Translations under genes and position numbers: made by a program | Shown here: positions 43,801-61,874 of the stretch, piece after piece | Layout: each line of letters opens with the position of its first letter | Position numbering within the stretch: position 1 is the first letter of the stretch | Assembly: GCA_017302635.1 (NCBI GenBank) | Contig: JAFLCX010000001.1 | Location: 744,001-808,000, forward strand | Reading direction: 5' to 3' | From: Hyphomicrobiales bacterium | GTDB lineage: Bacteria > Pseudomonadota > Alphaproteobacteria > Rhizobiales > Beijerinckiaceae | Length of the DNA: 64,000 bases | Notes under the pieces: generated by a model | Told to the model about the DNA's origin: nothing | Databases searched by the model: none | The model's input: the letters and a program-made list of their open reading frames with translations, nothing else

Positions 43801-43815
43801 GTTCCTCGCCGTTTT

Positions 43816-45147: not shown

Positions 45148-45345
45148 GAGCGTATCTCCCGAATGAATTGTTCTGTGCCGCCGAGTTCAGGCCGGCGGTC
45201 ATCACAAGATTGCAGGAGAAACCCGGGGTTTTGAAGTTAAATAAATTCTTTTATTTTCAGATACTTATATAATTCCAATCTATTGACCGTTTCGAACATT
45301 TCCCAAAACTATCTTCTCCGATGTGTCAAGAATGACCCAAGCCCG

Positions 45346-46683
45346 TCAGGAGTCGAAATCAGCCCCGCGCGAGAGCCCATGGGTCCTGAGTTTCAGATAG
45401 AGGGTCTTGCGAGAAACGCCGAGCCGCTCGGCAATGGCTTCGAATGTGCCGCCCTCTGCAAGGGCATGCGTCAATTCGCGTTTCTCGTGGGCCGCCATTC
45501 GGGTCTCGAGAGTGCCAGCCGATATCGTGATCGCCGACACCATCGGGCCCGAACCCAGCGGCGGAAATCCCATCGCGGCCCGCTCGGCTGCGTTGCGAAG
45601 TTCACGGATGTTGCCGGGCCAATCATGCGAGAGAAGCGGCGTCGGGTCGATTTCAGGCGGCATGGGGCGTTTCATGCGTGCCGCCACTTCCGAGACAAAA
45701 TGACGGAACAGCAGCAGGATATCGTCGGCACCGCGCTGGCGAAGGGGGGGTGTTTCCAGCGGCAGCACCGCCAGCCTGTAGACCAGATCTTCCCGAAACT
45801 GTCCGCTTTTCGCGATCGCTGAAAGGTCGGCCTTGGTCGCGGCGATTACTCGGATATCGACAGGAATTTCCTTCACGCCGCCCAACCGCTCGACGCGTCG
45901 CTCCTGAAGGACACGCAGCAGCCGCGTCTGCGCTTCGAGCGGCATGCTTTCGATTTCATCGAGAAACAATGTGCCGCGGTGCGCCTGCTCGATCTTGCCG
46001 ATGCGGCGCTCCTTCGCGCCGATGAAGGCTCCGGGCTCGTGCCCGAAGAGCTCTGATTCGATCAGCGTTGCAGGCAGAGCGGCGCAGTTGATGGCGATGA
46101 AAGGTCCGCGATTGCGCGGTCCGAAATCGTGCAGGCTGCGGGCAACCAGTTCCTTGCCCGTGCCGGTTTCGCCCTGAATGAGCACGGTACTGTCGACCTC
46201 GGCGAGAGCCAGAACCAGCTCACGCAACCGCTTCATCGGGTGCGATGAGCCGAGGATGCGGTGCTCAATCGCCCGCGCGGAGACGTTCCCGGCCAGTCGT
46301 CTGTGATCCAGCACTAGCCGCCTATGTGCGCTCGCCCGATGCAGGATTTCGAGCACATAGGCGGGATCAGCCGGCTTTTCGATGAAATCATGTGCGCCCC
46401 GGCGCATGGCCTCCACAGCCATCGTCACGTCGGCATGGCCGCTGATCAGAATGACCGGAATATCGACATCGACGGATTTCACCTCCTTGAGAACGGCAAA
46501 ACCATCGCGAGCAGGCATCCGCACGTCGGAGAGCACCACGATATCCGCCTCACGGGCGAGGTGGTCACGTGCCGCCATCAGCGAGGAGCAGGGCTCAACG
46601 CCGTACCCGCCCAGTCGCAGGGTCTCGGAGAGCGCTTCGAGCACTTCCTCGTCATCGTCGATCAGGATGATGGTGCTTGCCAT
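45346..46683 (-). CDS. Sigma-54 type response regulator, PgtA/DctD-like, with GAFIGA loop
   Basis: 445 residues. Receiver with D53 (LSDVRMPARDG); AAA+ domain with Walker A GETGTGKE (171-178), Walker B LFLDEIES and arginine finger region; C-terminal Fis-type helix-turn-helix (EAIAERLGVSRKTLYLKLR). The loop that contacts sigma-54, normally GAFTGA, reads GAFIGA (218-223), so the key Thr is replaced by Ile. Gene order binding protein, kinase, regulator equals pgtC-pgtB-pgtA of enterobacteria, which controls phosphoglycerate uptake. It should control the ABC operon that begins 199 bp downstream. Confidence 0.88.
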   Translation of the reverse strand: MASTIILIDDDEEVLEALSETLRLGGYGVEPCSSLMAARDHLAREADIVVLSDVRMPARDGFAVLKEVKSVDVDIPVILISGHADVTMAVEAMRRGAHDFIEKPADPAYVLEILHRASAHRRLVLDHRRLAGNVSARAIEHRILGSSHPMKRLRELVLALAEVDSTVLIQGETGTGKELVARSLHDFGPRNRGPFIAINCAALPATLIESELFGHEPGAFIGAKERRIGKIEQAHRGTLFLDEIESMPLEAQTRLLRVLQERRVERLGGVKEIPVDIRVIAATKADLSAIAKSGQFREDLVYRLAVLPLETPPLRQRGADDILLLFRHFVSEVAARMKRPMPPEIDPTPLLSHDWPGNIRELRNAAERAAMGFPPLGSGPMVSAITISAGTLETRMAAHEKRELTHALAEGGTFEAIAERLGVSRKTLYLKLRTHGLSRGADFDS

Positions 46684-46684
46684 G

Positions 46685-48607
46685 TCAACTCACCCCCGCC
46701 GCGCGCAATTCAATCGAGAAATGCGCGCCTTCATCGGAGGCCAGCAGGCGCAAGGCTCCGCCAAAATCGCGGATGATGCTGAACGAAATCGCCAGCCCCA
46801 AGCCAACGCCTTCGCCGGGCGGTTTCGACGTGACGAAGGGATCGAAAATCGCGTCCCGCACGCTGTCCGGCACGCCGGGGCCGTTATCGCTAATGTCGAT
46901 CCGCACCAGATTGTTGCGCTGTTCGGCCTGAATGCGCACGACCGGCTGCGGCGTCTCGACCAGCGCATCGAGCGCATTGCCGATCAGGTTCACGAAAACC
47001 TGCTCGAGGCGGATATCCTCTGCTTCGGCCTGAAGCCCGGCCGGGATATCAAGCTCGAGGCGTGCGCCGGCCTCTTTCAGCCGGCTCGCAAGGATGAGGT
47101 TCGCGCCCTCCACGACCTCGGCGATGGTAACCGCCGAAAGGGCGAGGTCTGGTCGTCGCGCAAACCGGCGCAGATGCCCCACGACATGCGCGGCACGCGC
47201 GGTGAGTTCCTCCACCTTTCGCAAGGCCCGTGTCACCCCTTCGGTTTCGCCACGCTGCTGGAGCAGGCTGGCATTGTAGGCGTGCGAGCGGATGGCATTG
47301 AGCGGCTGGTTGAGTTCGTGCGCGATACCCGCCGAGAGATGTCCGAGAGCGGCGAGCTTTGCCGATTGCACGAGATCACTCTGGGTACGCCGAAAACGCT
47401 CCATCGCGCGCGCCATGTCGCTCAACTCATCATGACCGGAAATCTCGATCGGCGGCGGAATTTTTCCGTCGGCCAGTTGGCGAGCCGTATCACCCACGAT
47501 GCCGATGCGGCGGATGAGGTTCGAGCGGACGTAAAACAGGCCGCTTCCCAGAGATGCCAGCACCGCGATCGCCCCGATCAACAGCAACAGGTTCCGCCCG
47601 ATGCGGATCGAGCTTTCCGCTTCGTGCTGCGACTGCCCCGCGCGATCGGAAGCCCGGGCGACGAGCCCGGCGATCTCGCGATCAAAAGCGCCCACCAGCG
47701 TTCTGTTGTCGCCGAGCAGCAGCGTCAGCTTGCGCTGTTGCGCGAGTTCGAGACGACGCAGGGCCGGCAACCCATTCTCGGACGTCGAGAGTTCTATCAA
47801 CCGCTGGATGACTTGCCGCAGGGTCAGAGTGTCGGGTGCCTCCTCCATGGGCGGCACCTGGGCGCGGATCAGGTCAACGGTTTCCGCAAGAAAATGATTG
47901 TCGAGAGCCAGTTGCTCCAACGTATCCACGGCCGCGATCCGGCTGATCAATCCGATCGCCAGATTTGCATGCGAGGAGACCTGCAGGATCGCTTCAGCCT
48001 TCCGGATCTGCTTTCGGATTTCGGGCGCAGGCCGTGCCTCGCCACGCGGGCGGGACTCGATTTCTTCAAGTTGGGACAGCACGATGACGCGGGCATCGTC
48101 TACAAGCGGCTCCGCTTCTTCCACGAAGTCGGAGTGAAGCGAGCGCACCTCGCGGAGCAGCACTTCATTTTGCCGGCGCATGGCGAGAGCCGCGAGGGTT
48201 TCGGCGCGGATCGAATCGAGATTCTGGTCGAGATCGTCGATCAATCTGCGCATGCCCTCGGGGGCTGTCGTGCTGTCCTGGTCCACCAGTTGGCGCAGGA
48301 TGCTCGCCCGCTCGCGCAGCCTCGCCCCGATATCCTCCACTTCGGCGGGACTTTCGGCGCGCGTGAGAAGCGGCGCGCCGGCCGTGATCGCACCGCCCAC
48401 CTGTGCAAGCCTGCCGGCAGTCACGACGAGGGGCAATTGTCCGCCGCCGATCGTACGGATGGCCCCGCTCACACGCTCGAAGGCCAGCCAGGCGATCAAC
48501 ACGGCAAGCAGCGCAAGCAAGGCAGAGAGGCTGAAGGCGAAGCCCAACCTGCCGCCAATACCCAGCCAGGCGCGGCGCGGCTCGCCTGCATCGTGCAGCT
48601 GACTCAT
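46685..48607 (-). CDS. Membrane histidine kinase, PgtB-like
   Basis: 640 residues. Helix 1 (about 20-45) and helix 2 (about 338-360) enclose a large, mostly helical periplasmic domain of about 290 residues. HAMP follows, then HisKA with the phospho-acceptor in LSAGIAHELNQPLNAIRSH and the ATPase with NLIGNALDAL, DNGPGVP and GEGVGLGLAI. The HELNQPL form is typical of DctB-like kinases that partner sigma-54 regulators. The start overlaps the stop of the upstream binding-protein gene by 4 bp, and the regulator gene follows after 1 bp. Confidence 0.9.
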   Translation of the reverse strand: MSQLHDAGEPRRAWLGIGGRLGFAFSLSALLALLAVLIAWLAFERVSGAIRTIGGGQLPLVVTAGRLAQVGGAITAGAPLLTRAESPAEVEDIGARLRERASILRQLVDQDSTTAPEGMRRLIDDLDQNLDSIRAETLAALAMRRQNEVLLREVRSLHSDFVEEAEPLVDDARVIVLSQLEEIESRPRGEARPAPEIRKQIRKAEAILQVSSHANLAIGLISRIAAVDTLEQLALDNHFLAETVDLIRAQVPPMEEAPDTLTLRQVIQRLIELSTSENGLPALRRLELAQQRKLTLLLGDNRTLVGAFDREIAGLVARASDRAGQSQHEAESSIRIGRNLLLLIGAIAVLASLGSGLFYVRSNLIRRIGIVGDTARQLADGKIPPPIEISGHDELSDMARAMERFRRTQSDLVQSAKLAALGHLSAGIAHELNQPLNAIRSHAYNASLLQQRGETEGVTRALRKVEELTARAAHVVGHLRRFARRPDLALSAVTIAEVVEGANLILASRLKEAGARLELDIPAGLQAEAEDIRLEQVFVNLIGNALDALVETPQPVVRIQAEQRNNLVRIDISDNGPGVPDSVRDAIFDPFVTSKPPGEGVGLGLAISFSIIRDFGGALRLLASDEGAHFSIELRAAGVS

Positions 48608-49959
48608 GGGCGCAGCCCCGGTGCGATGAGTTCAGCAGGTGTCAGGCGACGCTGGAGCGCTTCAAGTCGTTCCTCGGCGCCGGCCAACGTTGTTTCCGCC
48701 GCTTGCCGTATCCGGGTGACCAACGCCGCCTGAACCGGATCGAGCGGCGCGCCGCGTGGAACACGCTTGAGGTCCGCCACTGCGGGCTCCTGATGAAGCC
48801 CAGCAAGCGCGCCCGGCAATTGCGCCGCCAATTGCCCGATTGAACGCCACTCGGCACGCAAATCAGGGTGGTTTGCTAGCCGGGCATCCAGTGCTGAATG
48901 GTTGCGCCAGAATTTCTGCAATCGCGCCAGCCGTTCGGTAATGAGTTCGTCAAACAGGATATTCACCAGTTCATACCGGGTGCCGGAGAGCCGCGCATCA
49001 AAGCGGAAGGGCGGCTCCTCCGCTCGAGCCAGTGCGAAGAGATCCTGTCCGCCCGTCGGCAGAATGCCTGCTCCGATGGGGAAACGATTGATCTGGGGTT
49101 CGATCAGAAGTCTTTGCCCGGCTTCTGAAAGAACAAAGTCCGCAAAACGACGCGCACCCTGCGGATTTCGCGCGCCGGCCAGCACGGCGATGCTCGCGGG
49201 CAGGAAGACGTTCTCCGTCGGATAAGCGAATTCAAGTTCGCCTGTTTCGTTGCGGCCAAGAAAATCGATCGAAAGCCCGATGGCGAAGCGCCCTTGCGCC
49301 ACACCGCTGGAGACACTGAAAGATCGGGCCGTGACGGTCGCAAGATTGCCGGCAAGCCTCAGCCAGATTTCCCATCCGCGTTCCCAGCCATAGCGCTGGA
49401 GCACGGTCTCGACCATCAGATGCGTTGTGCCCGAGCGAGACGGCGCTGACATTGCGACCAGCCCCGCAAAGCGTGGATGCACGAGATCAGCAATTGCGCG
49501 TGGAGTAGCGACCTGCGCCCGTGCCAGACTCGGAGCATGCCACATCATCCCGTAGCCGGAGATCGAAAAACCCCGGTAAAGCCCGTTGATATCATCAACT
49601 GGAAAAGCACCGATACGGCTTGAGGCCGGCTGGATTCCGGAGGGAATGGGAACGAACTTATCTGCTTCACGCAGCACTTCGAACGCATCGGGTGCCGATG
49701 CCCAGAACACATCACCCTCGAATCGCCCGGTCGTCACCATCGCAATGGCCGCCGTTGTCTTCCGATTGAGCATCCGCAGGCGAAATCCGGGTTCCTTCTG
49801 CTCAAAGGCGCGCCGGAATGGCTCATAAAGCGAAGCAGGAAAAGAGGTGACGACCACCACTTCCTCGCGAGCGACGGCCGAACCCGTAAAGAAACAAAGG
49901 GCCAAGGCCAACAAGCGGCGAGGCGTTTGACCCAGTCCTATCCGGCAGAAAGCTCTCAT
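48604..49959 (-). CDS. Periplasmic binding protein linked to sensor kinase, PgtC-like
   Basis: 451 residues from ATG 49959-49957, which begins a clear signal peptide (RRLLALALCFFTGSAVA, about residues 14-30); no good ribosome site is seen, so the start is uncertain. EVVVVTSFPASLYEPFRRAF and VFWASAPDAFEVLREADKF show it is a paralogue of the ABC binding protein at 43816. A C-terminal helical extension (about 340-451) is also shared in kind. It presumably presents ligand to the kinase encoded directly downstream rather than to the transporter. Confidence 0.85.
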   Translation of the reverse strand: MRAFCRIGLGQTPRRLLALALCFFTGSAVAREEVVVVTSFPASLYEPFRRAFEQKEPGFRLRMLNRKTTAAIAMVTTGRFEGDVFWASAPDAFEVLREADKFVPIPSGIQPASSRIGAFPVDDINGLYRGFSISGYGMMWHAPSLARAQVATPRAIADLVHPRFAGLVAMSAPSRSGTTHLMVETVLQRYGWERGWEIWLRLAGNLATVTARSFSVSSGVAQGRFAIGLSIDFLGRNETGELEFAYPTENVFLPASIAVLAGARNPQGARRFADFVLSEAGQRLLIEPQINRFPIGAGILPTGGQDLFALARAEEPPFRFDARLSGTRYELVNILFDELITERLARLQKFWRNHSALDARLANHPDLRAEWRSIGQLAAQLPGALAGLHQEPAVADLKRVPRGAPLDPVQAALVTRIRQAAETTLAGAEERLEALQRRLTPAELIAPGLRP

Positions 49960-50599
49960 GCGCGCGATTGATGCAGCTTTGTCGTCAATCCGCAAGCGCG
50001 GCCGGACGCCGGATTCTTCCGTCAGCGCTCGCAACGGCATTGTACGCCGTGCTGCGGCAGATTGTCGCCAAAGCACGCGATGCTCATGGGCCGGTCGGGC
50101 TATTGTCACTGCTACTTCCAGATGCAGCAGCTTCGGCAGGCATCGCAATCATGGGCATTTTTGCACATTTTTTATTGGCATAAACGCAACGATTGGATCG
50201 CTTCTTTTACTCAGTCGCCTAAGGACTTCGCGACCTCTAGGCGACACGCAGAGAGAGTGTCCCCGCGGCGAAAAGTAGAAATAACCTTTGATAAAATTTA
50301 TTACGACAGAATTGTGAGATTATATTATAAAACCATCAAATTAAGAATTTAAAATGAAAAATTACATGAAGTAAGATTCATGTAAATATTTATAATTACA
50401 TGAAATGTTTACATGTTATCATTTTTTTCGCTCATGGCGCTCTTTTCGGAATTTTCAATGGAAATCAATCGAAAGTTGCACACATATCGTCGTTAATCAA
50501 AGCTTTAAATCAAGCATAAACTGAGTGTTTAGCCGGTTGATCATCCAGGGCATTCATGCATTGTTGACGTCAATTTATCCTTTTGGAGCATTGGTATCC
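49960..50599. other. AT-rich intergenic region between divergent units
   Basis: 640 bp without a convincing gene. The left third (to about 50150) has normal GC content; from about 50150 to 50560 the sequence becomes strongly AT-rich, with runs such as TTTATTGG and AAAATTTATTACG. It must hold the promoters of the leftward binding protein-kinase-regulator operon and of the rightward fusion gene. It contains the TTACATG element array listed separately. No tRNA, hairpin terminator or small open frame with a ribosome site was found. Confidence 0.7.
50362..50417. promoter_or_regulatory. Array of four TTACATG elements upstream of the fusion gene
   Basis: TTACATGAA at 50362-50370, its inverse TTCATGTAA at 50377-50385, TTACATGAA again at 50396-50404 and TTACATGTT at 50409-50417. 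Start-to-start distances are 15, 19 and 13 bp. Clustered, partly inverted copies in a promoter suggest a regulator that binds cooperatively. The array is 180-240 bp before the fusion gene start. Confidence 0.6.
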
Positions 50600-53500
50600 A
50601 TGTCAAAGCCCTCTCTTTTCCTTGCTTTAACCTACCATACGGATGCTTCTACAAAGTCTTTCACCAGCATACGCGGCTCAGGATTTTGTCGTGCTGCCTC
50701 ATTTTTAGTCGCAGCTTGCGCCCTTGCTGTTCACGCGACCCCTGCTCTCGCGATCCCGTCGCCGGAACTCATCATCGGTTCGCTCTCGTCGCTGTCGCAA
50801 CTCCTGACGATCGGACTGGCCAGCGTTGGCGGCGTGGCCGCCGTGGGGTTCGGCATGTCGGCGCGGCGCTCGGGCGCCAGCGCGAAAGCGGCTCGCCGCA
50901 TGTCGCTGATTGCGCTCGGCCTTCTCGTTGTGGCCCTGATCTCGGCTATGGGAAACATTTATCAGTACCGCAGCTATAGCGCAGAGCGGCAGGAGCGGCT
51001 GGAAGCCACCCTCACGCGGCCCTCGCGTGATCCGGGCGCGCCGGTCGCCGACCCGACCTTGCGCGAATACTCGTTCAACCAGCAGCTCCGCCACAAAAAC
51101 GGCATCTCAACCGCTGACGCCAACAAGCTGATGAGCGAGGCCGCCTCCGGGCTGCGCCCCGACGTGTTCTTCCTCGATATCCGCGAGACGGCGGAGACCG
51201 AAATGGGCACGCTGCCGGACGCCAAAATTTCCCGGGGGCCAGACCTGCCGAAATCGGGGATCGGTTTCGAGGGCAAGACCGCCATTCTCTTCTGCCACAA
51301 TGGCAATCGGAGCGCTGAAAACTGCGAGGCGCTCGCGGCGCGCGGCATCAACTGCAAGTTTGTCGTCGGCGGGCTCGAGAAATGGGTCGTCGAAGGCCGC
51401 AAGATGACCGGACTCGAAAACCGGACGCTCGATACTCTGCGGGCGGTGCCGGATTTCCCGAATGCACGCACCTTGCTCGATACCAAGGAGGTGAAGAACC
51501 TTGTCGACAATGAAGGCGCAATCTTCGTCGACCTGCGCTACCCGGGCGAATTCGCGCAGCGCCACATTCCCGGCGCGATCAACATCACGATGCGCACGGC
51601 GACCACCGAAGATATCAAGGCGCGCGTTGCAGCGCTGCCGAAGAAGCCGGTGATCGTGCCCTGCTATGATCGGCGCAGTTGCTTCTTCGGCGAGTTGATG
51701 GGGCTGGAACTGCATCGCATGGGTGGCGATTTCCGCGGCCGCTATACCGTTCCGTGGGAGTATTTCCGCGAATCCACACGCCCGCCGCATGTCGTCGAGT
51801 GGCAGGCGCAGAAGGATCGGACTTACTGGAGCATCGGCGTCGAAGCCGTCGCGGATGTTCTCGTCAGCGTTTCGAAATGGCTCCCCTTCCCGCTGGTGCT
51901 GCTGCTTCTGGCCCTTCTTTCCCGGCTGATCATCCTGCCGGTGGCTCTGAAGGCCGAGCGCGACCAGATCGTCTCGAAGAAGATTGCGCCGGAGGTTGCG
52001 GCGCTGAAGGTGCGCCTCGCAGATGATCCTCAGCGCATGAGTCGAGCTCTGGGCGAGTTGTTCCGGCAACACAAGATGACACCGATGCGCAACCTGCTCG
52101 GGTTGCTGTTCCTGCCCATCCTCGCGATCTCGGTTTCGGCGGTGGATATGGCCGCCGGCAAACTCGGCACGCCGTTCTTCTGGGTCGAGAACGGCACGGT
52201 GAAGGACTTCACTTTTGTTTTGCCCCTGCTCTTCGGTGCTTTGCTCTGCCTGTACATCGATCTCTCGTTTCCGGGCAGCACGCGTCGTCGGGTCATGATC
52301 TGGGTCGGCGGCATGGCGCTGTTTGGCGGCATGGCCGCTGTTCTCGGAGCGGCTTCGAGTTTCTACATCGTGCTCAGCGCGGCGCTCATCCTGTTGCAGC
52401 GGCTCTATCTGACGCTGGATCGCAAATCGGTGCTCGGCTGGCTTGGTCTTCGTCGGAACACCTATGGAATCAAGACGCTATCGGAACCGGACGTTTTGAC
52501 CCATTGCGGCAACAAGGCCTACCGCCTGGCACGAATGAAGGCGGCCGGCATTCCCGTTCCGGATGGCTTTGTGCTCGATGATGCTTTCATCGCAACCTAC
52601 AGGGCTGCCGCACCATCCGAACGCGAAAAGATGCTCGATCAGGCATGGAACACCGCACCCCTCACTCGCGCTGCCGTACGCAGTTCTGCTGCGGGCGAAG
52701 ACGTTGCCGAGTTCAGCTTCGCGGGTGTTTTCGAGAGTGTCCTGCATATCGAGCGCACGACACTTGCCGAGGCTGTGGACCACGTCATCGCGTCCTTCAG
52801 CGACAAGCGTGCCGAGGCCTATGCGATCGATGCCAGCAGCGGCAATATTCTCGTGCAGCAGATGGTTGATGCCGAATATGCCGGCGTGCTCTTCACCCGC
52901 TCGCCGAATTCCGGCGGACACATGATGGTCGAGATGGTGCGCGGCACCGCTGACGCCTTCGTCTCGGGGGCTGCAACGCCCGAAACATTCTGTTTCGGCC
53001 GCACGACATCTCACTTGCAGGGCGATAAACATCCGCCGATTTCGGTGCTGGCGCTGCTCGAGATCGGGCGGAAGGCCGAGCAGTTGTTCGGCGGGCCGCA
53101 GGATATCGAATGGGCCTATCGCGGCGGAGAGTTTTTCATTGTCCAGAGCCGCGACATCACCCGTGCGGTGATCGGCGACAAGGTTGCCTTGGCCATCGAG
53201 GATGAACGTGCCCGGCTGATCGAGCGCGCCTCGGGTGCTCAGCCAGGCGAAGTGGTTCTCGCGCGCACTGAACTTGCCGAACTTCTGCCGCGTCCGACCG
53301 CGCTCTCGCTTTCGCTGATGAACGAGATCTGGTCGGTGGGCGGCAGTGTCGATCGTGCCTGCCGATCGCTCGGGCTCACCTACAATGTCGGCGAGAACAC
53401 GCCGTCCTACGTGACCCCGGCTTTCGGGCGTCTCTACATCGATCGCCGGCAGGAGCTGGCACGTGCGCCGGTCGTCAGCACTTTCCTGCTGCGCAAGCTG

Positions 53501-54688
53501 ACCAAGCAGGCCGAGACGATCGAAGCGAGCATTCGCGGTGATCTTTTTGCCGAGATCGAGTCTCATACCACGCTGATGGATGCGGTGGATTTCGGGAAAA
53601 TGTCCACGCCGGATCTCCTTGCGACGTTCAAGCGCCAGCACGAACGGTTCGTGGGCGGTATCTATGCCGAGGTGGAGAGCGTCAACATCCTCGCGTCGCT
53701 CTTCGTGGGGCAGGCAACCGCCCTGCTGACAAAAGCAGGCGTGGAGCCCAGTGCAGTGCTCGCCGGAGCGGGCGAAACCTTGATCGCGCGCGGGATCGCG
53801 GCGGCTGAGGCAGCGACCTCGCCCGAAGAGCGTCGCGCGATCCTGCTGCAGACGCTCGGCCATCGGGCGAGCTTCGACTACGAACTCTCCCAACCACGCT
53901 ATGGCGAGACGGTCCACAGGCTTGAACAATTTGCTGCCGGCTGGCCCACGGGCGCTGACTTGCCAGCAATTCCGGATCGCCTGAGCCAGAAAGCACACAA
54001 GGCCGCGCTGGCGGCCCGCCGTTTCCAGACCCTGAAGGAGGATGCCAAGCACATGGCCTTGCGCGAGCTTGCCGCCTTGCGCAGGATCGCGATGGCGCTC
54101 GATGACCGGTTCGAACTCGGTGGCCTGGCCTTCTGGCTCACTTCGGACGAACTCAAGAGCTTCGGCGCGGACACCGAGCAGAAGCTGCGCGAACTGGCGG
54201 TCGAGCGGCGCGATCTGGCGGCGATCTTTGCGGATCTTCCGGGTCTGCCATCGGCCCTCACCGCCGAGATCATCGAAAATGCAGTTCTGACAGATTCCAG
54301 CTCGACGGACGGCGCAGGGGCGCTGAAGGGCTCGCGCGTCGCCGGTTCAAAGCCCGTCGAAGGGCGGGCGCGGGTGATCGCGCAGTCTGTCGCCGAATTG
54401 GGTGGCCCGATCGATGACCTCGAGCCGGGTGACATCATCGTCGCCCCGATGATCCCGCATGCGTGGCTGCCCTATTTTCGGACTGTCGCCGGGCTGGTCT
54501 CCGATGTGGGCGGCTTCCTCAGCCACACTGCGATCGTGGCCCGCGAGTTCGATCTCGCGATGGTCGTCGGTGTCGCCCAATGGAAATCCATTCCGGATCG
54601 AGCGACCATTCGTCTCAATCCTGATGGTTCAATCGAGTGCATCGAAAATCAGGCTGCGCTCGGACATTACGAGGAGGCAGCCGAATAA
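50600..54688 (+). CDS. Rhodanese-rhodanese-YidC/Oxa1-phosphotransferase fusion protein
   Basis: 1362 residues from ATG 50600 (GGAG 11 bp upstream; GTG 50525 also in frame). Residues 31-121 hold three hydrophobic helices. Two rhodanese domains follow: about 160-270 with Cys232 in FCHNGNRSAE, and 290-395 with Cys355 in PCYDRRSC. Residues 420-610 resemble the YidC/Oxa1 core: SRLIILPVALKAERD (Arg442 at the groove position), a charged cytosolic loop, then four helices. Residues 630-860 are a PPDK/PEP-synthase ATP-grasp domain (RSSAAGED 694-701; AGVLFTRSP; DIEWAYRGGEFFIVQSRDIT). Residues 886-1234 are helical with LGHRASFDYELSQPRYGE, as in rifampin phosphotransferases. The C-terminal swivel domain has His1309 (GGFLSHTAIVARE). 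No PEP TIM barrel exists. Positive-inside charges place the rhodaneses outside and the phosphotransferase inside. Substrate unknown. Confidence 0.9.
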   Translation: MSKPSLFLALTYHTDASTKSFTSIRGSGFCRAASFLVAACALAVHATPALAIPSPELIIGSLSSLSQLLTIGLASVGGVAAVGFGMSARRSGASAKAARRMSLIALGLLVVALISAMGNIYQYRSYSAERQERLEATLTRPSRDPGAPVADPTLREYSFNQQLRHKNGISTADANKLMSEAASGLRPDVFFLDIRETAETEMGTLPDAKISRGPDLPKSGIGFEGKTAILFCHNGNRSAENCEALAARGINCKFVVGGLEKWVVEGRKMTGLENRTLDTLRAVPDFPNARTLLDTKEVKNLVDNEGAIFVDLRYPGEFAQRHIPGAINITMRTATTEDIKARVAALPKKPVIVPCYDRRSCFFGELMGLELHRMGGDFRGRYTVPWEYFRESTRPPHVVEWQAQKDRTYWSIGVEAVADVLVSVSKWLPFPLVLLLLALLSRLIILPVALKAERDQIVSKKIAPEVAALKVRLADDPQRMSRALGELFRQHKMTPMRNLLGLLFLPILAISVSAVDMAAGKLGTPFFWVENGTVKDFTFVLPLLFGALLCLYIDLSFPGSTRRRVMIWVGGMALFGGMAAVLGAASSFYIVLSAALILLQRLYLTLDRKSVLGWLGLRRNTYGIKTLSEPDVLTHCGNKAYRLARMKAAGIPVPDGFVLDDAFIATYRAAAPSEREKMLDQAWNTAPLTRAAVRSSAAGEDVAEFSFAGVFESVLHIERTTLAEAVDHVIASFSDKRAEAYAIDASSGNILVQQMVDAEYAGVLFTRSPNSGGHMMVEMVRGTADAFVSGAATPETFCFGRTTSHLQGDKHPPISVLALLEIGRKAEQLFGGPQDIEWAYRGGEFFIVQSRDITRAVIGDKVALAIEDERARLIERASGAQPGEVVLARTELAELLPRPTALSLSLMNEIWSVGGSVDRACRSLGLTYNVGENTPSYVTPAFGRLYIDRRQELARAPVVSTFLLRKLTKQAETIEASIRGDLFAEIESHTTLMDAVDFGKMSTPDLLATFKRQHERFVGGIYAEVESVNILASLFVGQATALLTKAGVEPSAVLAGAGETLIARGIAAAEAATSPEERRAILLQTLGHRASFDYELSQPRYGETVHRLEQFAAGWPTGADLPAIPDRLSQKAHKAALAARRFQTLKEDAKHMALRELAALRRIAMALDDRFELGGLAFWLTSDELKSFGADTEQKLRELAVERRDLAAIFADLPGLPSALTAEIIENAVLTDSSSTDGAGALKGSRVAGSKPVEGRARVIAQSVAELGGPIDDLEPGDIIVAPMIPHAWLPYFRTVAGLVSDVGGFLSHTAIVAREFDLAMVVGVAQWKSIPDRATIRLNPDGSIECIENQAALGHYEEAAE

Positions 54689-54717
54689 GCGGCTCCTCAT
54701 GCTTATTCGCCGTTTCT

Positions 54718-54745
54718 CAGCCCGAACTTTAGCGAGTCCGGGCTG
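54718..54745. terminator. Hairpin after the fusion gene
   Basis: CAGCCCG pairs with CGGGCTG, extended inward by ACT/AGT after one mismatch, with a 6-nt loop. It is 29 bp past the fusion stop and 11 bp past the stop of the convergent small frame. No T-run follows on either strand, so it could be a weak shared terminator or a 3'-end stabiliser. Confidence 0.55.
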
Positions 54746-54756
54746 ATGAATCGTGT

Positions 54757-54915
54757 TCAGTCGATCGAATGTTCTGCAACCTGAACAGTAATTTTCTTAT
54801 CTGCTCCGAAATTAGACGATGAAAAATGTGAATTCATCATCAAGAATGGGATGATCGCGAGACTAATTGCTCCAATCATATTGATCCAATTCTTTTCTAC
54901 GAGCATGTTTTGCAT
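54757..54915 (-). CDS. Possible small membrane or secreted protein, 52 residues
   Basis: Too short for usual gene calling. ATG 54915-54913 has GGAG 9 bp upstream. The product begins MQNMLVEKNW, has one hydrophobic stretch (about residues 11-27, INMIGAISLAIIPFLMM) and a polar tail ending VQVAEHSID. Codon use is AT-rich like the surrounding spacer and unlike the rest of the window. It is convergent with the fusion gene, with a hairpin between them. No similarity is recognised; comparative conservation is needed to be sure that it is translated. Confidence 0.4.
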   Translation of the reverse strand: MQNMLVEKNWINMIGAISLAIIPFLMMNSHFSSSNFGADKKITVQVAEHSID

Positions 54916-55230
54916 GATGTCGTACTCCGTCCAGCCCTTCTTGAGCGTGGAAGATACAGACGCTGTGTGACATCCCTGTGAAACATTCGAATAAAATTGT
55001 ATTCAAATCAAAAAACACAGCAAATTCTGTATATTTACATTACATCAACCATTCAAAAGTATAAATTTCGCTGTCTAAATGCTCACAATTTAAAGTAGAA
55101 AACCCCAGCTCGATTTTCACGCAAAGATTGTGTTTCGACACCAAAGTTCAGATCATTGGATCCGTCCGCTGGTGGGGAAAGTCTCTCCTTGAATGTGATG
55201 CATGGCAATTGATTCATCTCGAGGGTCCTC
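54916..55230. other. AT-rich spacer before the PstS-like gene
   Basis: 315 bp, strongly AT-rich from 54970 to 55110. It should hold the divergent promoters of the 52-residue frame and of the binding-protein gene. Two overlapping TTACAT half-sites occur at 55035-55045, resembling the core of the array at 50362. ATTCGAAT/ATTCAAAT-like motifs occur near 54990. No other gene is seen. Confidence 0.55.
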
Positions 55231-56016
55231 ATGAGCAACCGCCATCCGACACAGGTCTCCAAGTCCAGTTTTGTAGCTTTCGCCTTGCTCACAGCAACCA
55301 CATTCGGTGTCTTTGCGAATGATGGAATTGTTATTCAAGGGTCTTCAACGGTCAGTTCGCGTCTTTTTGTTCCATTCAAGGCCTCTATTGAAGAAAAAAG
55401 CGGACAAAAAATTGCCGTCACATCCTCGAAATCATCGGCCGGACTGATCGCTTTGCTTGAAGGGCAAGCTCAAATTGCGATGATGTCATCACCGCTTGAA
55501 GAAGAGATCCCGAATGTGAAGAAAATTCTTCCAACGGGCGACTTCGCCTCTCTCAAGGCTTTCGAGATCGGGCGCACTCGCGCGGCCTTCGCGATCCATC
55601 CGAAGAATTCCACGAAGCCGGTCTCCATGGCTCAGCTGAAGGATATCCTGACAGGGCAGATCGGAAACTGGAAGGAGGTCGGCGGTCCCGACATGCCGAT
55701 CCGGCTTGTGGTTGTGCGGCAGGGCGGCGGCGTGCTTTCAACGGTGGAAGCGCAGATGAACGGGGGCAAGGACATTGATGTCCCCAATATGATCAAGGTC
55801 AATAACGGCAGCCAGGTCATCAAGGTTGTCCAACAGGAAGAGGGTGCGCTGGGTATCGCGCAGCTGGGCCTTGTCTCGGAGGCGAAGTTGCCTGAACTCG
55901 GCACCGAAAAGCCGATCGAGCAGCGCCTGTTCCTGATTACAAAGAACACACCGGCGGCTCCCTTGCAGAAAGTGATCGAAGCCGCCCGCGAAGTCGCTTC
56001 GCGCGAGTTGCGCTGA
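55231..56016 (+). CDS. PstS-like periplasmic binding protein
   Basis: 261 residues. Signal peptide about 1-29 ([16 protein letters not shown]). [17 protein letters not shown] followed by [22 protein letters not shown] is the phosphate-binding-loop layout of the PstS-type family, and [21 protein letters not shown] is a hallmark. At 261 residues it is shorter than transport PstS (about 320-340) and no pst permease genes adjoin. Codons in the first third are AT-rich and the rest GC-rich. A methyl-accepting protein gene follows 29 bp later, so a sensory rather than a transport role is plausible. Confidence 0.85.
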
Positions 56017-56045
56017 ACCTGCAATCACCCGGCAAGGAAACGGCA

Positions 56046-57713
56046 ATGGGTATCCTGAGAATCTCAACGAAGCTCTATGCAGTCGTCGGCGTTTTTCTGG
56101 CGCTCGTGATGTTCCTCGGCGGTGTCACCATGATGGCCTCGCAGCGCATGAGCATGGCGGGGCAGGAACTCCACAGCAGTTTCCTCGCTGTCGATACGCT
56201 GGGCGGATTCAAGCTCCTGATCGAGCGGCAGCGCCGCATCGTCGAGAGTGCCCCGGCGGAGTTGGACCGTTTGCGCCTGAAGGAGCAGCGGGAGGAACTG
56301 TCGAGCGTTTCGGCGAAGCTTCTGGGCATTCTCGAGGAAGGCAAGGTTCTGGCCGGGCAGGGCGGACCTGATGCCGAAGCCTCGAAACACCTGAACGAGA
56401 TGATTCGTCTTGGCCATGAGGTGGTCTCTCTGGCCGAGAAATTCGCGCATGATCGTGCGGGCGCACTCGCGCAGGGTGCTTTCAATTCGGCGGCCGATGC
56501 CCTGCAAAAGCGGCTTGAGCGCGACCAGGCTGAACGCATGATCCGTTCGAATGAGGCGGCTTTGGCGGTGCAGGATGCTGCCAAGCTCACCCTGACTGCC
56601 GCAGCCGCCGTCAGCCTGCTGGCTCTTCTGCTCAGCCCGCTTGGCGTGCTGGTGACCTATCGCGTCGTGGATCGGCTCGCGAAAATTCGCGCCAGCATGC
56701 TGAAACTCGCCAGCGGCGATCAGGATACCCATGTACCTTTCAGTCAGGATCGCGACGAGATCGGCGCCATGGCGACGGCGCTGACGGTCTTCAAGGAGAA
56801 TATCGAGCGCATTTCGGCGCTCAGTTGGGAAACGGAGACCATGCGGGCGGAGGCGGCCGAAGAGCGCCGCCAGCAACTCGACAGCATCGCGGCCGAATTC
56901 GAGGAAACGATCCAGCGTGTCGCCCATTCGGTCGCGAATTCGTCCACCGCCCTGCAATCGGTCTCCCAGACCCTGACGGAGGTCTCGGCCAGCACCAGCG
57001 AGCGCACACGGCTGGTGCTCGATCAGGCGAGCGAAACCTCCAACCAGGTCGGAGCCGTCGCCGGCGCAACGACGCATCTCAACAGCTCGATCAGCCAGAT
57101 CGCCGAACAGGCTTCGGATGCGGCGCGCACCGCCAAACAGGTCGGCGAGGACAGTAAAGTGATCCGCGAGCGCGTGGCCAACCTCGTGGCCTGCGTCAGC
57201 GAGGTCGATGAAGTGGCCGAAACCATCCGCACCATTGCAGCCCAGACCAACCTTCTGGCGCTGAATGCGACCATCGAGGCCGCAAGGGCTGGCGAGGCTG
57301 GAAGGGGCTTCTCGGTCGTTGCGTCGGAGGTCAAGTCACTCGCGCAGCAGACCGCGAACGCGACGCAGGTGATCGCCACCCAACTGACAGCAGTCCAGCA
57401 AGCCACCAATGCGGCTGCCGAGTTCATTGAAAGATTCACCCACAAAGTGAACGAAATCAGTCTCTCGGCAACCGGCATCGCCGAAACCGTCAGTGAACAG
57501 CGCGAGAGCGTCGACAGCATTGATCTGGCAGCGCGCAAGATCGCGGCCTCAACCCAGCAATTGCACGAAGCCATCCTTCTCGTTCAGGAGAATGTCGACA
57601 AGAATGCGGATGCCGCGTCGCATTCCCAGCACAGCGCGCATGAACTCGGCACATATGCCGAAGAACTCGATACCTCTGTCTCGAGGCTCATCCAGCGCAT
57701 CCGTGCGGCCTGA
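56046..57713 (+). CDS. Methyl-accepting chemotaxis-like signalling protein
   Basis: 555 residues. Helix 1 (about 10-32), a helical periplasmic sensor of about 150 residues, helix 2 (about 184-205), HAMP ([20 protein letters not shown]), then the cytoplasmic coiled coil with the hairpin tip [20 protein letters not shown] and [18 protein letters not shown]. No C-terminal NWETF-like CheR-binding tail is present. AAGGAAACGGCA precedes the ATG. It is in operon with the PstS-like protein, which may act as its ligand-binding partner. Confidence 0.9.
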
Positions 57714-57732
57714 AGCAGAATTCGGGGCAGCA

Positions 57733-57757
57733 GGCCGGGTCTTATCCCGGCCTCATT
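57733..57757 (+). terminator. Probable terminator after the methyl-accepting protein gene
   Basis: GGCCGGG / CCCGGCC form a 7-bp stem with a 6-nt loop, 20 bp after the stop, followed by TCATTTCC. The T-tract is interrupted, so efficiency is uncertain. Confidence 0.65.
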
Positions 57758-57858
57758 TCCGGATGGATCAGGTCGTTTTCGGGCGCTTTTCGAACGCCCA
57801 GACCGTGCCAGCTCGATGCATGAAGCTTGCCAAGCACAAAAATTCTCGTCCTTGATGT

Positions 57859-57884
57859 GAACCTCTTGCTCCGCCCGCGCGACC
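57859..57884 (+). promoter_or_regulatory. Predicted ECF promoter of the sigma factor gene
   Basis: TGAACC with GAACC at 57859-57863, a 16-bp spacer, then CGACCAA from 57880. The identical pattern occurs before the two small genes at 61071 and 61563. The -10 element ends 34 bp before ATG 57919. It indicates autoregulation. Confidence 0.7.
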
Positions 57885-57918
57885 AAGCAACGTGCAGGCC
57901 TTGCTGAAGGTGATGCCG

Positions 57919-58479
57919 ATGGAGTCTGGCAGCGACGAGGAACTCGTCCAACGCATTGCCAAGGGAGACAACCTTGCCATGCGGGTGCTTTACGCCCGGC
58001 ATAACCTGCGTGCCTTCCGGTTTCTCCAACGCCTCTTGAAGGACGAGGCGCTGGCGGAGGATGCGCTGAGCGAGGTCTTTGTGGATGTCTGGCGGCAGGC
58101 GGCGAGTTTCGAGGGGCGATCCTCGGTTTCCACCTGGCTTCTGGCGATGGCGAGGAACAAGGCCTGGTCGGCCTTGCGCAAGCGCCGCGAGGCCGAGCTC
58201 GATGAGGGCGTGGCCGAAGCAATCGAGGATGATGGCGATGACCCCGAAGTGCAGATGCAGAAGAGCGACAAGGGCGCGGCGATCCGCGCCTGCATGGAGA
58301 AGCTCTCCCCCGAACACCGCGAGGTTCTCGATCTCGTCTACTACCACGAAACATCCGTCGAGGAGGTCGCGATGATCATCTCGATCCCGGAAAACACCGT
58401 GAAAACCCGTCTTTTTCATGCTCGCAAGAAACTTGGCGAGCTTCTCAAAGCCAACGGAATCGACCGGGGGTGGCCATGA
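57919..58479 (+). CDS. ECF-family RNA polymerase sigma factor
   Basis: 186 residues from ATG 57919 (GAAGG 8 bp upstream); ATG 57913 or GTG 57892 are alternatives. Region 2 (residues 20-90) has ALAEDALSEVFVDVWRQA and WLLAMARNKAWSALRKRR; region 4 (from about 125) has LSPEHREVLDLVYYHETSVEEV and PENTVKTRLFHARKKL. The stop overlaps the anti-sigma gene start by ATGA. A promoter of the same type as two downstream ones precedes it. Confidence 0.93.
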   Translation: MESGSDEELVQRIAKGDNLAMRVLYARHNLRAFRFLQRLLKDEALAEDALSEVFVDVWRQAASFEGRSSVSTWLLAMARNKAWSALRKRREAELDEGVAEAIEDDGDDPEVQMQKSDKGAAIRACMEKLSPEHREVLDLVYYHETSVEEVAMIISIPENTVKTRLFHARKKLGELLKANGIDRGWP

Positions 58480-59159
58480 TCAACGCTCTGAACGAGGCAG
58501 ATCGGGAGATCGAGGATCTCCTGCCTTTCTATCATAACGGACGTATTTCGGCCGCTGACCGGGCACGTGTCGAGATTGCTCTTGGCACCAACGCCGAATT
58601 GCGCCGGCGGCTCGACCTCATCGCTGAGGAGAGCGAAGCGGCGATCGTGCTCAACGAAGCAGCCGGTGCGCCCTCGCCTCGCGCCCTCGATGCCCTGATG
58701 GCAAAGATCGAAGCCGAGCCGAAGCGGATCGCACAGCAGGTGGGTGCCGTGCGGCGCGGGTTGATGGAACGGCTGGGTGGCCTGATCGCCGCGCTCTCGC
58801 CGAAAACACTGGCTTATGCGTCTGCTGCGGCGATTGCCGTGATTGCGGCGCAAGGCGTCGTTTTGACGGGCGTCGTGCCTGGTTCAGGGCCTGGCTCACA
58901 GAATTATCAGACCGCCTCGGCCCCTGCCGCGAGCGATGGCACCTTTGTGCTCATCTCCTTCGCGCCGGAAGCCAAAGCAGTGGCAATTGCTGATTTGCTG
59001 AAGAGCGTCGGAGCCTCGATTGTCGAGGGACCGCGTGCCAGCGGGCTCTATCGCGTGCGGATTGGTGACAAGGCCTTGCCTCGGCCGGAGTCCGAGCGCA
59101 TTGTTGCACGGCTTCAGGCGGCTAAGGATGTGGTCGCGCTCGTCGCTCCTGATCAGTGA
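58476..59159 (+). CDS. Putative membrane anti-sigma factor
   Basis: 227 residues from ATG 58476 (GGGGGT upstream). The cytoplasmic N-terminus (1-105) begins NEADREIEDLLPFYHNGRIS, like the fold of anti-sigma domains, but lacks the HxxxCxxC zinc motif. One helix (about 110-132, TLAYASAAAIAVIAAQGVVL) crosses the membrane. The periplasmic C-terminus contains FVLISFAPEAKAVAIADLLKSVGASIVEGPRASGLYRV, which may be a small ferredoxin-like domain. Placement directly after the sigma gene with a 4-bp overlap supports the role. Confidence 0.82.
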   Translation: MINALNEADREIEDLLPFYHNGRISAADRARVEIALGTNAELRRRLDLIAEESEAAIVLNEAAGAPSPRALDALMAKIEAEPKRIAQQVGAVRRGLMERLGGLIAALSPKTLAYASAAAIAVIAAQGVVLTGVVPGSGPGSQNYQTASAPAASDGTFVLISFAPEAKAVAIADLLKSVGASIVEGPRASGLYRVRIGDKALPRPESERIVARLQAAKDVVALVAPDQ

Positions 59160-59171
59160 GGAGAGGCCCAG

Positions 59172-60866
59172 ATGGCAAGCAAGCGTCTCTCAGGCTCCCT
59201 TGCGATGCTTGCTCTGGTTTTTGGCGGAATGGCCGTGCCGGCGATCGCCATGCCGGTCGCCATCGATGGGATGATGCAACCCACGGCCGAACCAGCCCAA
59301 TTCGTGCGCGGTCAGGGCAGCGTGCAGATGCCGCGAGGGAACTTTACGGGCGGCAATGTCCGTGTTCCCGGTGGCACGGCACGTGTGCCGGGCGGCGATA
59401 TCGGTCTCCCCGGCGGACGGCCCCGCGTACCGGGGGGACGTGGTCGCTTTCCGGGCGGCGCGGGCGTCATCATCGGCACGGGCGTCTTGTTGCCTCCGCT
59501 GATCGACGCGCTCCAGCCACGTGGAAGACGGGTCATCGTCGAGGAATATGATGATGACGATGAGCCGGTTCGTCCACGCGCGCGGCCGAGGCGAAAACAG
59601 GAGGCGCGCGGTGCGCCGCCGCGCCAGCCCCCGCGGCAGCAGACCCAGTCCGCTGGGCCCCGTTTGCCACCAGTCAGCATTCCGCGCCCGAACGAGCGCC
59701 GCTACGTGGCTGAAGAGGTGTTGCTCGAACTGCGCCCCGGCTCGGACAGCGCAGCCGTGATGCGACGCCATCGCCTCACCCCGCTCGCGACGACACGTTT
59801 TGTGCTCGCCAATGCAACAATCACACGCGCCCGGGTGGATGGCGGACGCAGCGCCCGACAGGTGCTTCAGCAAATGGCCGGGGACGCAAGGATCGCGAGT
59901 GCCCAGCCGAATTACCTCTATGCCTTGCAGCAAGAGCCGCAGAAGAGCGAAACTGCTGCACCGGCAGAGCCGCAAAAGGCAAGCATCGCGCCTGCGGCGG
60001 CTGAACCCGCGCCCGTCGCAAAGCCACAATATGTGCTCGATCGCATGGCCGTCGCCGACGCACATCGGCTGGCGCAGGGTGCAAAGGTGAAAGTCGCGCT
60101 CGTGGATACCGGTCTCGACGACGCGCACCCTGAACTGCAAGGCGTGATCGCCGGGCGTTTCGATGCGCTCGGCACGGATGCGACGGGCACTCTGGGACAT
60201 GGCACGGCACTCGCCGGTGCCATTGTCGCGAAGTCAACGTTGCGCGGCATTTCGCCCTCAGCCGAGTTGCTCGCTGCGCGCGCCTTTGGCTCGGCTGCCG
60301 GCACAGCCGCACAGGGCACCAGTTTTCAGATTTTACAAGCACTCGACTGGGCAGCAGAACAGGGCGCGCGCGTCCTCAATCTCAGCTTTGCGGGTCCACA
60401 GGACCGACTGATGGGTCGCTCGCTCGAGGGCGCGAGAACGCGCAAGATCATTGCTGTCGCGGCCGTCGGCAATGCCGGGCCGGGAACGCCGCCTCTCTAC
60501 CCGGCGGCCGAGCCCTCGGTCCTCGCGGTGACCGCGACCGATGCGAGTGATGCGGTATTCAACCGCGCGAATACCGGCAGGCAGATCGCGATTGCCGCGC
60601 CGGGTGTCGATGTCATCGCCGCAGCACCCGAAAAGGGCTACACGTTCTCGTCCGGCACATCGATGGCGGCAGCCCATGTCTCGGGGCTTGTAGCCCTGAT
60701 GCTGGAGCGCAACCCGGAGCTGGATCTCGCAGGAGTGAGGCGCGTACTCGCCGCCACAGCGCAGGATCTTGGCCCGAAAGGTCCGGACACGATCTTCGGT
60801 GCTGGCCGGGTGAATGCAGCCGCTGCCGTCGCCCGCGCAGCCGAGGAAGCCGCCAAGCGGCCCTGA
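59172..60866 (+). CDS. Secreted subtilisin-family (S8) serine protease
   Basis: 564 residues with a signal peptide (about 1-26). A low-complexity region with five PGG repeats (residues 66-96) is followed by an acidic and Arg/Pro-rich linker, an inhibitor-like propeptide (about 178-250, RYVAEEVLLELRPGSD to SAQPNYLYAL) and the S8 catalytic domain: D312 (VDTGLDDAHP), H343 (GHGTALAGA), N434 (VGNAGPG) and S497 (SSGTSMAAAHVSGL). It sits 12 bp after the anti-sigma gene, so it may process the anti-sigma factor or be an effector of the envelope response. Confidence 0.9.
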   Translation: MASKRLSGSLAMLALVFGGMAVPAIAMPVAIDGMMQPTAEPAQFVRGQGSVQMPRGNFTGGNVRVPGGTARVPGGDIGLPGGRPRVPGGRGRFPGGAGVIIGTGVLLPPLIDALQPRGRRVIVEEYDDDDEPVRPRARPRRKQEARGAPPRQPPRQQTQSAGPRLPPVSIPRPNERRYVAEEVLLELRPGSDSAAVMRRHRLTPLATTRFVLANATITRARVDGGRSARQVLQQMAGDARIASAQPNYLYALQQEPQKSETAAPAEPQKASIAPAAAEPAPVAKPQYVLDRMAVADAHRLAQGAKVKVALVDTGLDDAHPELQGVIAGRFDALGTDATGTLGHGTALAGAIVAKSTLRGISPSAELLAARAFGSAAGTAAQGTSFQILQALDWAAEQGARVLNLSFAGPQDRLMGRSLEGARTRKIIAVAAVGNAGPGTPPLYPAAEPSVLAVTATDASDAVFNRANTGRQIAIAAPGVDVIAAAPEKGYTFSSGTSMAAAHVSGLVALMLERNPELDLAGVRRVLAATAQDLGPKGPDTIFGAGRVNAAAAVARAAEEAAKRP

Positions 60867-60991
60867 GTGACGCCCGAGCTGTTCCGCGCCAGTCTTTTTT
60901 TCAAAGAAACGCCCGCAAAACAAAAGGATGTGGCGATTCTGGCAATCGGCCTCTTTCTCATCTCCTGTGCGAAAAAAAGTGGCCTTTCTTT

Positions 60992-61017
60992 GAACCTTCA
61001 CCCCTCTCCTCGCGACC
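60992..61017 (+). promoter_or_regulatory. Predicted ECF promoter before the first small secreted-protein gene
   Basis: GAACC at 60992-60996, a 16-bp spacer, CGACCAAC from 61013, matching the sigma gene promoter exactly in elements and spacing. The -10 element is 54 bp before ATG 61071. The rest of the 204-bp gap after the protease holds no gene. Confidence 0.7.
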
Positions 61018-61070
61018 AACAATCAGAGGGCCGATGACCGGACCCTCATCAGGAACGAGGGAACCCGACA

Positions 61071-61343: not shown

Positions 61344-61371
61344 TCGTCGGCTTTCTCCTGAGCCGATGATG

Positions 61372-61407
61372 CAGCCGCCCCGGCGAGGGGCGGCTGATTT
61401 CATTTTC
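61372..61407 (+). terminator. Terminator after the first small gene
   Basis: A perfect 10-bp stem CAGCCGCCCC / GGGGCGGCTG with loop GGCGA, followed by ATTTCATTTTC. It lies 29 bp past the stop. Confidence 0.8.
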
Positions 61408-61480
61408 AGGACCCGCCACGAAGTTCGACCCGTCATCGATCGTCCGATTTCTGCCTTCCAAAAATAATTTCGCATGACGT

Positions 61481-61850: not shown

Positions 61851-61874
61851 ACGCCGGCAAGGCTCGCAAATTCA

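Follow-up and report, generated by a model that had tools for sequence, protein, structure and literature searches.

A rhodanese-YidC-phosphotransferase fusion gene that travels with a substrate-binding protein and a receptor

Rifampin phosphotransferase (RPH) is described as a chimera of phospho-relay parts in which Lys22, Arg117 and Thr136 serve ATP, His825 is the carrier and Glu667-Arg666 act in the second phosphotransfer (PMC4844700). The structures of RPH-Lm (5HV1, 5FBS-U) comprise three domains without a membrane part, i.e. an ATP-grasp domain, a helical acceptor domain and a C-terminal histidine swivel domain in that order. Here we analyse a gene lying in a stretch of 64,000 nucleotides from a Hyphomicrobiales bacterium (contig JAFLCX010000001.1, positions 744,001 to 808,000; the window), the product of which has the same three domains in the same order, but as an arm hanging on a membrane core that also bears two rhodaneses. 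We refer to this gene and its product as the fusion.

The membrane core resembles the YidC/Oxa1 insertases. In place of the P1 domain that E. coli YidC has, the fusion is predicted to carry its two rhodaneses, and past the last helix of the core it continues into a phosphotransferase arm of 735 residues. Its closest parallel in biology is YibN of E. coli, for which we know of no phosphotransferase arm, binding protein or receptor. YibN is a membrane-bound rhodanese that reportedly interacts with YidC, the two being separate proteins; unlike the fusion it has a single rhodanese, which is predicted to be cytoplasmic (PMC12282094). The fusion differs from enzyme I of the phosphotransferase system (PTS), phosphoenolpyruvate (PEP) synthase and PPDK in that no PEP/pyruvate barrel was found in it and in having a membrane part of the YidC kind.

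At nearly every locus with both flanks available, the fusion gene is accompanied by genes for a periplasmic substrate-binding protein (SBP) and for a transmembrane receptor. Most of the SBPs are PhnD-like, sharing their family and most oxyanion contacts with PtxB/PhnD and AioX/ArrX-type SBPs; AioX and ArrX are inputs of sensor kinases. The PhnD-like partners differ from these in having the capping tyrosine replaced by lysine and in being encoded beside the fusion. Across the loci the receptor output varies among histidine kinase, GGDEF-EAL and MCP. The parts are thus known; the earlier note on this DNA knew of no described system with the whole architecture, and neither the whole nor any paper on the fusion was found in the literature searched, most subscription journals lying outside it. 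The close partnership with an SBP and a receptor of interchangeable output suggests that the chain is part of a distinct kind of sensing system.

At the level of sequence the system is defined by one chain with a fixed domain order and near-invariant catalytic residues, by linkage and co-occurrence with the SBP, by switching of the SBP-receptor pair, and by three receptor outputs. We propose, with a probability of about 0.4, that the fusion is the constant member of a three-gene cassette and acts as a membrane phosphotransferase, phosphorylating inside the cell a compound whose outside form is sensed by the SBP-receptor pair.

Architecture, topology and active sites of the fusion

Four Pfam families, i.e. 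rhodanese (twice), 60KD_IMP/YidC, PPDK_N and PEP-utilizers, are found in one intact frame of 1,362 codons. Its features are the following.

50600..54688, plus strand: fusion gene (rhodanese twice, YidC-like core, RPH-like phosphotransferase), 1,362 aa, start ATG
50525, plus strand: in-frame GTG upstream of this ATG
50600..50752, plus strand: signal-peptide-like segment, residues 1-51, with A-x-A before a conserved IPSPE (hydropathy, charge, conservation)
50768..50965, plus strand: two transmembrane (TM) helices, residues ~57-86 and 100-122 (hydropathy, loop charges, helices in the structure model)
51092..51409, plus strand: rhodanese domain 1, loop CHNGNR, C232 at 51293-51295
51473..51769, plus strand: rhodanese domain 2, loop CYDRRSC, C355 at 51662-51664, and C361; best Pfam stretch 295-360
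51887..52417, plus strand: YidC/Oxa1-like membrane core, groove arginine R442 at 51923-51925
52505..53167, plus strand: ATP-grasp domain (PPDK_N) with K639, R694, S713, D835 and E837 (Pfam, conservation, RPH-Lm alignment)
53237..54304, plus strand: helical middle domain with GHR...PRY and LKEDAKH (K1146, E1147, K1150) (RPH-Lm alignment, conservation)
54320..54634, plus strand: phosphohistidine swivel domain, H1309 at 54524-54526 (PF00391)

The single-frame architecture that the earlier note had read from the DNA is therefore borne out by Pfam, and the rhodanese domains have their catalytic cysteine. The 60KD_IMP domain scores 49.7 bits, above the Pfam cut-off of 35; the NCBIfam model yidC_oxa1_cterm gives 54.8 bits and does not reach its cut-off of 84.3. 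Only these four families are found in the fusion at E ≤1, and the PEP/pyruvate-binding TIM barrel (PF02896) is not among them. A protein search with the fusion gave 590 matches at E ≤1e-3. All four families are present in one chain in 119 of the 120 matches listed (query included; 1,254-1,412 aa), the remaining one being a fragment, and identity to the query among the listed full-length matches extends from 87% down to 45%. Recurrence of the identical architecture in many records rules out a frameshift or assembly artefact.

The signal-peptide-like segment is hydrophobic over residues 34-52, with a net charge of +3.1 in the n-region and A51-E56 conserved at ≥90% in 40 rows, and we infer that it is cleaved. 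Beyond it family-mean hydropathy places TM1 at 57-86, TM2 from 100 and the five YidC helices. In structure models built from 49 rows both N-terminal TM segments are helical, the first at low confidence. The Foldseek and VIA-align lists scarcely probe rhodanese 2 by itself. Loop charge (K+R minus D+E, family mean) alternates, being +3.9 between TM1 and TM2, -7.7 for the rhodaneses, +4.7 for the YidC C1 hairpin, -1.7 between TM3 and TM4, +2.8 between TM4 and TM5, -0.1 between TM5 and TM6 and +3.8 after TM6, although the 28 residues directly past TM2 run counter to the trend at +2.0. From this alternation the rhodaneses are predicted to lie outside, where the SBP is also predicted to be, and the phosphotransferase arm inside; the periplasmic and cytosolic placing that the earlier note drew from charge thus stands as a prediction.

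Conservation of the active sites was assessed in two sets. In 40 database proteins, which were found without rhodanese-loop patterns, C232, C355, C361, R442, K639, R694, D835, E837, K1146, K1150 and H1309 are present in all 40, and S713 and E1147 in 39. This upholds the earlier claim that C232, C355, R442 and H1309 are intact. The second set is of 71 full-length copies, i.e. the window and the 70 of 80 fetched genome loci that encode more than 1,280 aa. Here C232, C355, C361, the groove arginine R442, K639, D835, E837 and K1146 are kept in 71/71, K1150 in 70/71, H1309 in 69/71, and S713 and E1147 in 68/71, while positions 242 and 252 are cysteine in 67/70 loci; the rhodanese cysteine counts in this set are inflated, because the 80 loci were retrieved by two rhodanese-loop patterns.

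Over its full length the arm has RPH-Lm as its closest relative of solved structure. A profile alignment pairs its R117, T136, R666, E667, K670 and H825 with R694, S713, K1146, E1147, K1150 and H1309 (the chain number of RPH-Lm minus 12 gives the published residue number), so that R117, E667, K670 and H825 are kept, T136 is Ser and R666 is Lys. K22 pairs with K639 via a weak stretch of 1.4 bits. Since both sets of active-site residues are kept, with R666 as Lys, both RPH-like half-reactions look possible. The arm superposes on RPH over 639 residues, acceptor region included. The rifampin-binding pocket (Q336, Y351 and others) falls in a region that the profile does not align.

The binding protein and receptor genes

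Two further genes follow the fusion in the window.

55231..56016, plus strand: PstS-like periplasmic SBP (PBP_like_2), 261 aa
56046..57713, plus strand: transmembrane receptor with N-terminal sensor, HAMP and MCP signalling domain, 555 aa

The 80 fetched loci derive from 97 stretches encoding a relative in a genome scan. With the window included, an SBP gene lies within 5 kb of the fusion in 65 of 81 loci and a receptor gene in 63, and both do so in 54 of the 57 loci having at least 3.5 kb on each side. This pair, which the earlier note had missed, came from a check of the neighbours of homologues. Co-occurrence was counted in a Rhodobacteraceae-type family sample of 296 genomes (E 1e-80 and 1e-40): the fusion is present in 11, in each case with the SBP (fusion alone 0), the SBP is alone in 1, and 284 have neither. 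The Fisher value of 3.8e-19 ignores relatedness, and the sample overlaps the 80 loci. In genome G820 (L052) fusion and SBP are on separate contigs, and receptor pieces are found at the ends of both.

The SBP and the sensor of the receptor form pairs of two types, 11 PstS-like and 52 PhnD/PtxB-like, without a sequence match between the types. SBP type and sensor type are concordant in 63/63 loci and never mixed. The N-terminal 190 residues of the receptors (n=63) fall at E 1e-3 into two clusters, 11 with PstS-like and 52 with PhnD-like SBPs, and no open reading frame (ORF) was matched by both SBP query types. The sensor of the window receptor groups with those of 10 other loci, including GGDEF-EAL receptors such as L013 and L019. 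On the fusion tree, which is a quick tree with some long branches, the SBP type changes three times, two of these changes being forced by starred branches (e.g. the sister rows L014/L015). Outputs were assigned by Pfam in 22 of the 63 receptors: HisKA with a receiver in 13, GGDEF with EAL in 8, and MCP in 1, that of the window. The median gap between fusion and SBP is 356 bases for the PstS-like and 200 for the PhnD-like type. PstS-like SBP genes are mostly downstream on the same strand (10; upstream opposite in 2), and PhnD-like ones mostly upstream on the opposite strand (44), with 7 lying downstream in opposite orientation and 2 upstream on the same strand.

The nearest solved relative of the PhnD-like SBPs is the phosphite-binding PtxB (E 4.6e-33). 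In Te_PtxB Y55, Y100, S130, T131, S132 and H160 are named as contacts and Y208 as the cap (PMC5700983). We aligned 16 of the 53 PhnD-like SBPs, and 11 of the 12 PstS-like (L065 was excluded for unknown letters). Y55, S130, T131 and H160 correspond to Y88, S164, T165 and H194 in 16/16 PhnD-like sequences; Y100 is replaced by F, S132 by I in at least 90%, and the capping Tyr208 by an invariant Lys (16/16). Conservation of the PtxB oxyanion contacts makes it likely that three-oxygen binding is kept, and the cationic tail side provided by the cap lysine suggests a ligand with a negatively charged tail. The aromatic cap is likewise missing from a family member that binds glycerol phosphate (PMC12718374). 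In the PstS-like SBPs the phosphate contacts are not kept, the profile consensus being V, G, V against R, S, T in 4GD5, and likewise in the window SBP, with Thr retained in 3/11 members (L024, L038, L040). The Arg, Ser and Thr concerned are those of the second PstS loop, which we take to be the phosphate contacts. The ligand that we expect is hence a small anion bearing an XO3 head group, i.e. a phosphonate, a phosphate ester or a thiosulfate-like compound, the last being included because of the rhodaneses with their cationic second loop.

In 35 loci, all with a PhnD-like SBP, genes for zinc uptake by an ABC system (ZnuA, ABC-3 permease) form a cluster further out beside the trio. This is possibly only shared synteny of Roseobacter relatives. 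Such loci, of Rhodobacteraceae type, make up 33 of the 57 above, and the pair is present in 21 of the 24 others. A Fur-like gene is also seen in many zinc-cluster loci (L031, L034, L039 and 32 other PhnD-type loci).

The fusion is patchily distributed. The 80 loci are mostly of Hyphomicrobiales type and Rhodobacteraceae/Roseobacteraceae, with Granulosicoccaceae of the Gammaproteobacteria in addition. The fusion is found in 5/397 genomes of an order sample and 2/289 of a class sample, the window's own included in each, and no full-length fusion was found in any of 16 congeners of the window's genus. The samples overlap, the other four order-sample carriers being L014, L015, L019 and L038. Among the deeper relatives are P0223 and P0230, proteins whose names refer to Planctomycetes and Chitinimonas.

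Among relatives of the arm, 9 of the 120 listed have a PilZ domain (P0176, P0181, P0194, P0198, P0204, P0212, P0219, P0221 and P0226), which is C-terminal by Pfam scan in three and by alignment in the others. All nine have the [DN]xSxxG motif, with RxxxR upstream as read by eye; together these are the usual signature of cyclic di-GMP (c-di-GMP) binding. Some of the nine keep the YidC part, and P0194 and P0204 also the loop of rhodanese 2. Many short arm relatives are on short contigs and are probably fragments. In these PilZ-bearing relatives direct control of the enzyme by c-di-GMP is possible, and the domain would be a further tie to signalling. A separate PilZ gene is present at 13997-14395 in locus L018, starting 79 bases past the fusion (Pfam 27.9 bits against a cut-off of 22.5). 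As a general partner PilZ was rejected, being matched by one ORF in 81 loci (ORFs of at least 110 aa scanned); this is the L018 gene, itself a seed of the profile and hence no test.

Proposed function and its alternatives

In the mechanism that we favour, ATP would load H1309 by analogy with H825 of RPH, the swivel domain would shift to the middle domain, and the phosphate would be handed on at K1146/E1147/K1150, the acceptor group being a hydroxyl or the like. Outside, the loaded SBP would contact the receptor and so act on chemotaxis, c-di-GMP or gene expression, and would probably also contact the rhodanese-bearing outer face of the fusion. By way of the YidC-like core the substrate would reach the inner face, as such or carried on a lipid, and phosphorylation there would trap it. 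The trio is laid out like a system in which receptor and uptake machinery share one SBP, the fusion standing where such a system has its ATP-binding cassette (ABC) or PTS permease. Because the gene travels with an SBP and a receptor, the likely input is an SBP of phosphite/phosphonate/phosphate type and not necessarily the rhodaneses. The ideas of the earlier note that sulfur or thiol status is the signal, or that a secreted substrate takes part, gained no support.

A number of points weigh against this proposal. Uptake is its weakest step: YidC folds are insertases, and we know of none that carries small molecules. It is well established that an SBP and a receptor can pair up in the absence of any transporter, so that nothing may fill the place of the uptake system. 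The model assigns no definite role to the chemistry of the rhodaneses. The RPH-like acceptor region of the arm (residues ~860-1054) is not aligned to RPH by profile, although the folds superpose there, so the acceptor may be anything, even a protein. The rhodanese cysteine counts of the genome loci are inflated as noted above; the deep member P0223 lacks Cys at position 361, and the YidC part of P0230, present in one listing, does not reach E 0.05 against the 60KD_IMP model. Since the zinc cluster adjoins the trio in 35 loci, a metal link is possible and part of the linkage in them is shared ancestry. L016, L085 and L091, the three others of the 57 loci, have a fusion without SBP and receptor within 5 kb; in L085 (genome G730) there is no SBP on the fusion contig and a partial SBP match at the end of another contig. 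Conversely, genome G793 (L104) keeps SBP and receptor without a fusion.

We note of two of these loci that in G793 a CoA-transferase-like gene (by eye) follows SBP and receptor in the place of the fusion, a natural deletion, and that L016 comes from a metagenome-assembled genome named Ramlibacter (Betaproteobacteria). The L016 fusion clusters with Alphaproteobacterial rows and the pair is not nearby, so this may be a case of transfer or misbinning.

The rival readings differ chiefly in the role they give to the membrane part and the acceptor. The fusion could be a signal modulator, i.e. a co-receptor whose rhodaneses sense either thiols of the envelope or the SBP in its loaded state and whose arm phosphorylates a cytosolic messenger or protein, without uptake. 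The signalling domains in which all 22 assigned receptors end, the nine PilZ-bearing arm relatives and the PilZ gene past the fusion of L018 speak for it. Set against this, the arm superposes on a small-molecule phosphorylating enzyme and keeps its acceptor-site trio, and PilZ is absent from 111/120 listed arm relatives and from 120/120 listed full-length matches; we regard this reading as doubtful, though worth keeping in view. One-chain, ATP-driven group translocation goes further than our proposal. The rhodaneses would receive from the SBP a small anion such as a phosphonate, a phosphate ester or an oxyanion resembling thiosulfate, the YidC fold would be its conduit inward and the swivel histidine would phosphorylate it, while the SBP would also steer the cell by way of the interchangeable receptors. 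This we consider unlikely. We hold it quite unlikely that the fusion is a lipid-handling enzyme, with the YidC-like core shifting a lipid alcohol between leaflets for phosphorylation at the inner face. RPH itself accepts a large hydrophobic substrate (PMC4844700), but the neighbouring SBPs resemble small-anion binders, and the YibN rhodanese is predicted to be cytoplasmic (PMC12282094), whereas those of the fusion are predicted to be outside.

The window has another YidC-type frame.

26236-28113, minus strand: YidC-type frame, 625 aa, named by eye and by its match to the YidC-like domain of the fusion

The fusion as the only or housekeeping YidC is thereby ruled out. The frame also counts against a dedicated insertase, i.e. 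a YidC paralogue devoted to certain membrane proteins (the receptor, for example) and controlled by ATP and the thiols of the periplasm; moreover two sequence-unlike receptor types are served, and the phosphotransferase arm would be left unexplained, so this is very unlikely. Self-protection, in which the SBP would detect a toxic natural product and the RPH-like arm would phosphorylate it, draws on RPH-Lm as closest solved relative and on the source name 'rifampicin phosphotransferase' of many listed full-length matches. Yet the fusion scores 144.6 bits with the NCBIfam model RIF_Ptrans (NF041857), short of its cut-off of 999, and the SBPs have small-anion binders as their solved relatives; we give this idea the least credence.

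If the transport reading of our proposal is true, the fusion would represent an uptake system of a new class and, to our knowledge, the first member of the Oxa1 superfamily with a small substrate. If the signalling reading is true, chemotaxis, c-di-GMP or gene expression would be coupled to the periplasm in a new way. The gene occurs in culturable bacteria, e.g. Phaeobacter inhibens, which has it on a plasmid.

Probable mobility and surroundings of the cassette

The cassette was compared with 19.5 kb of the congener G006, and its surroundings in the window were annotated.

49881..57824, no strand: stretch unmatched in G006, comprising all three cassette genes plus the 5' part of the SBP gene that lies upstream of them
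43816-50148, minus strand: PgtABC-like cluster, in which genes for a PgtB-like histidine kinase and a sigma-54 regulator are flanked by those of two SBPs that are paralogues (E 9.6e-71)
57892-60866, downstream of the cassette: extracytoplasmic function (ECF) sigma factor, possible anti-sigma factor, subtilase

G006 matches the window in pieces at 42889-49880 and 57825-61903, with nothing between; in G006 the two flanks are 6.2 kb apart and their relative orientation is changed. The SBP type of the window is present in 1/17 genomes of the genus, the window's own. These comparisons suggest that the trio probably moved in as one unit. GC content is 0.56 at 50-52 kb and 0.54 at 54-56 kb, and an ordinary 0.62 at 52-54 and 56-58 kb; as it is ordinary in half of the cassette bins, composition lends weak support to an insertion. 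Elsewhere the fusion is found on 82 plasmid records, 59 of them from Phaeobacter. On plasmid pPGA2_239 of Phaeobacter inhibens 2.10 (L101) the cassette lies between an annotated zinc uptake cluster and a MurR/RpiR regulator with tviB. This plasmid is presumably of the type that has the tropodithietic acid genes.

The PgtABC-like cluster was rejected as a partner, its four genes upstream of the fusion having no counterpart in the other loci (phmmer E 1e-15, ORFs ≥110 aa) apart from a match to the histidine kinase in L091 (1e-18). Its SBP at 48604 has matches in 7/16 congeners, and the ECF gene downstream of the cassette has close matches in 3/16.

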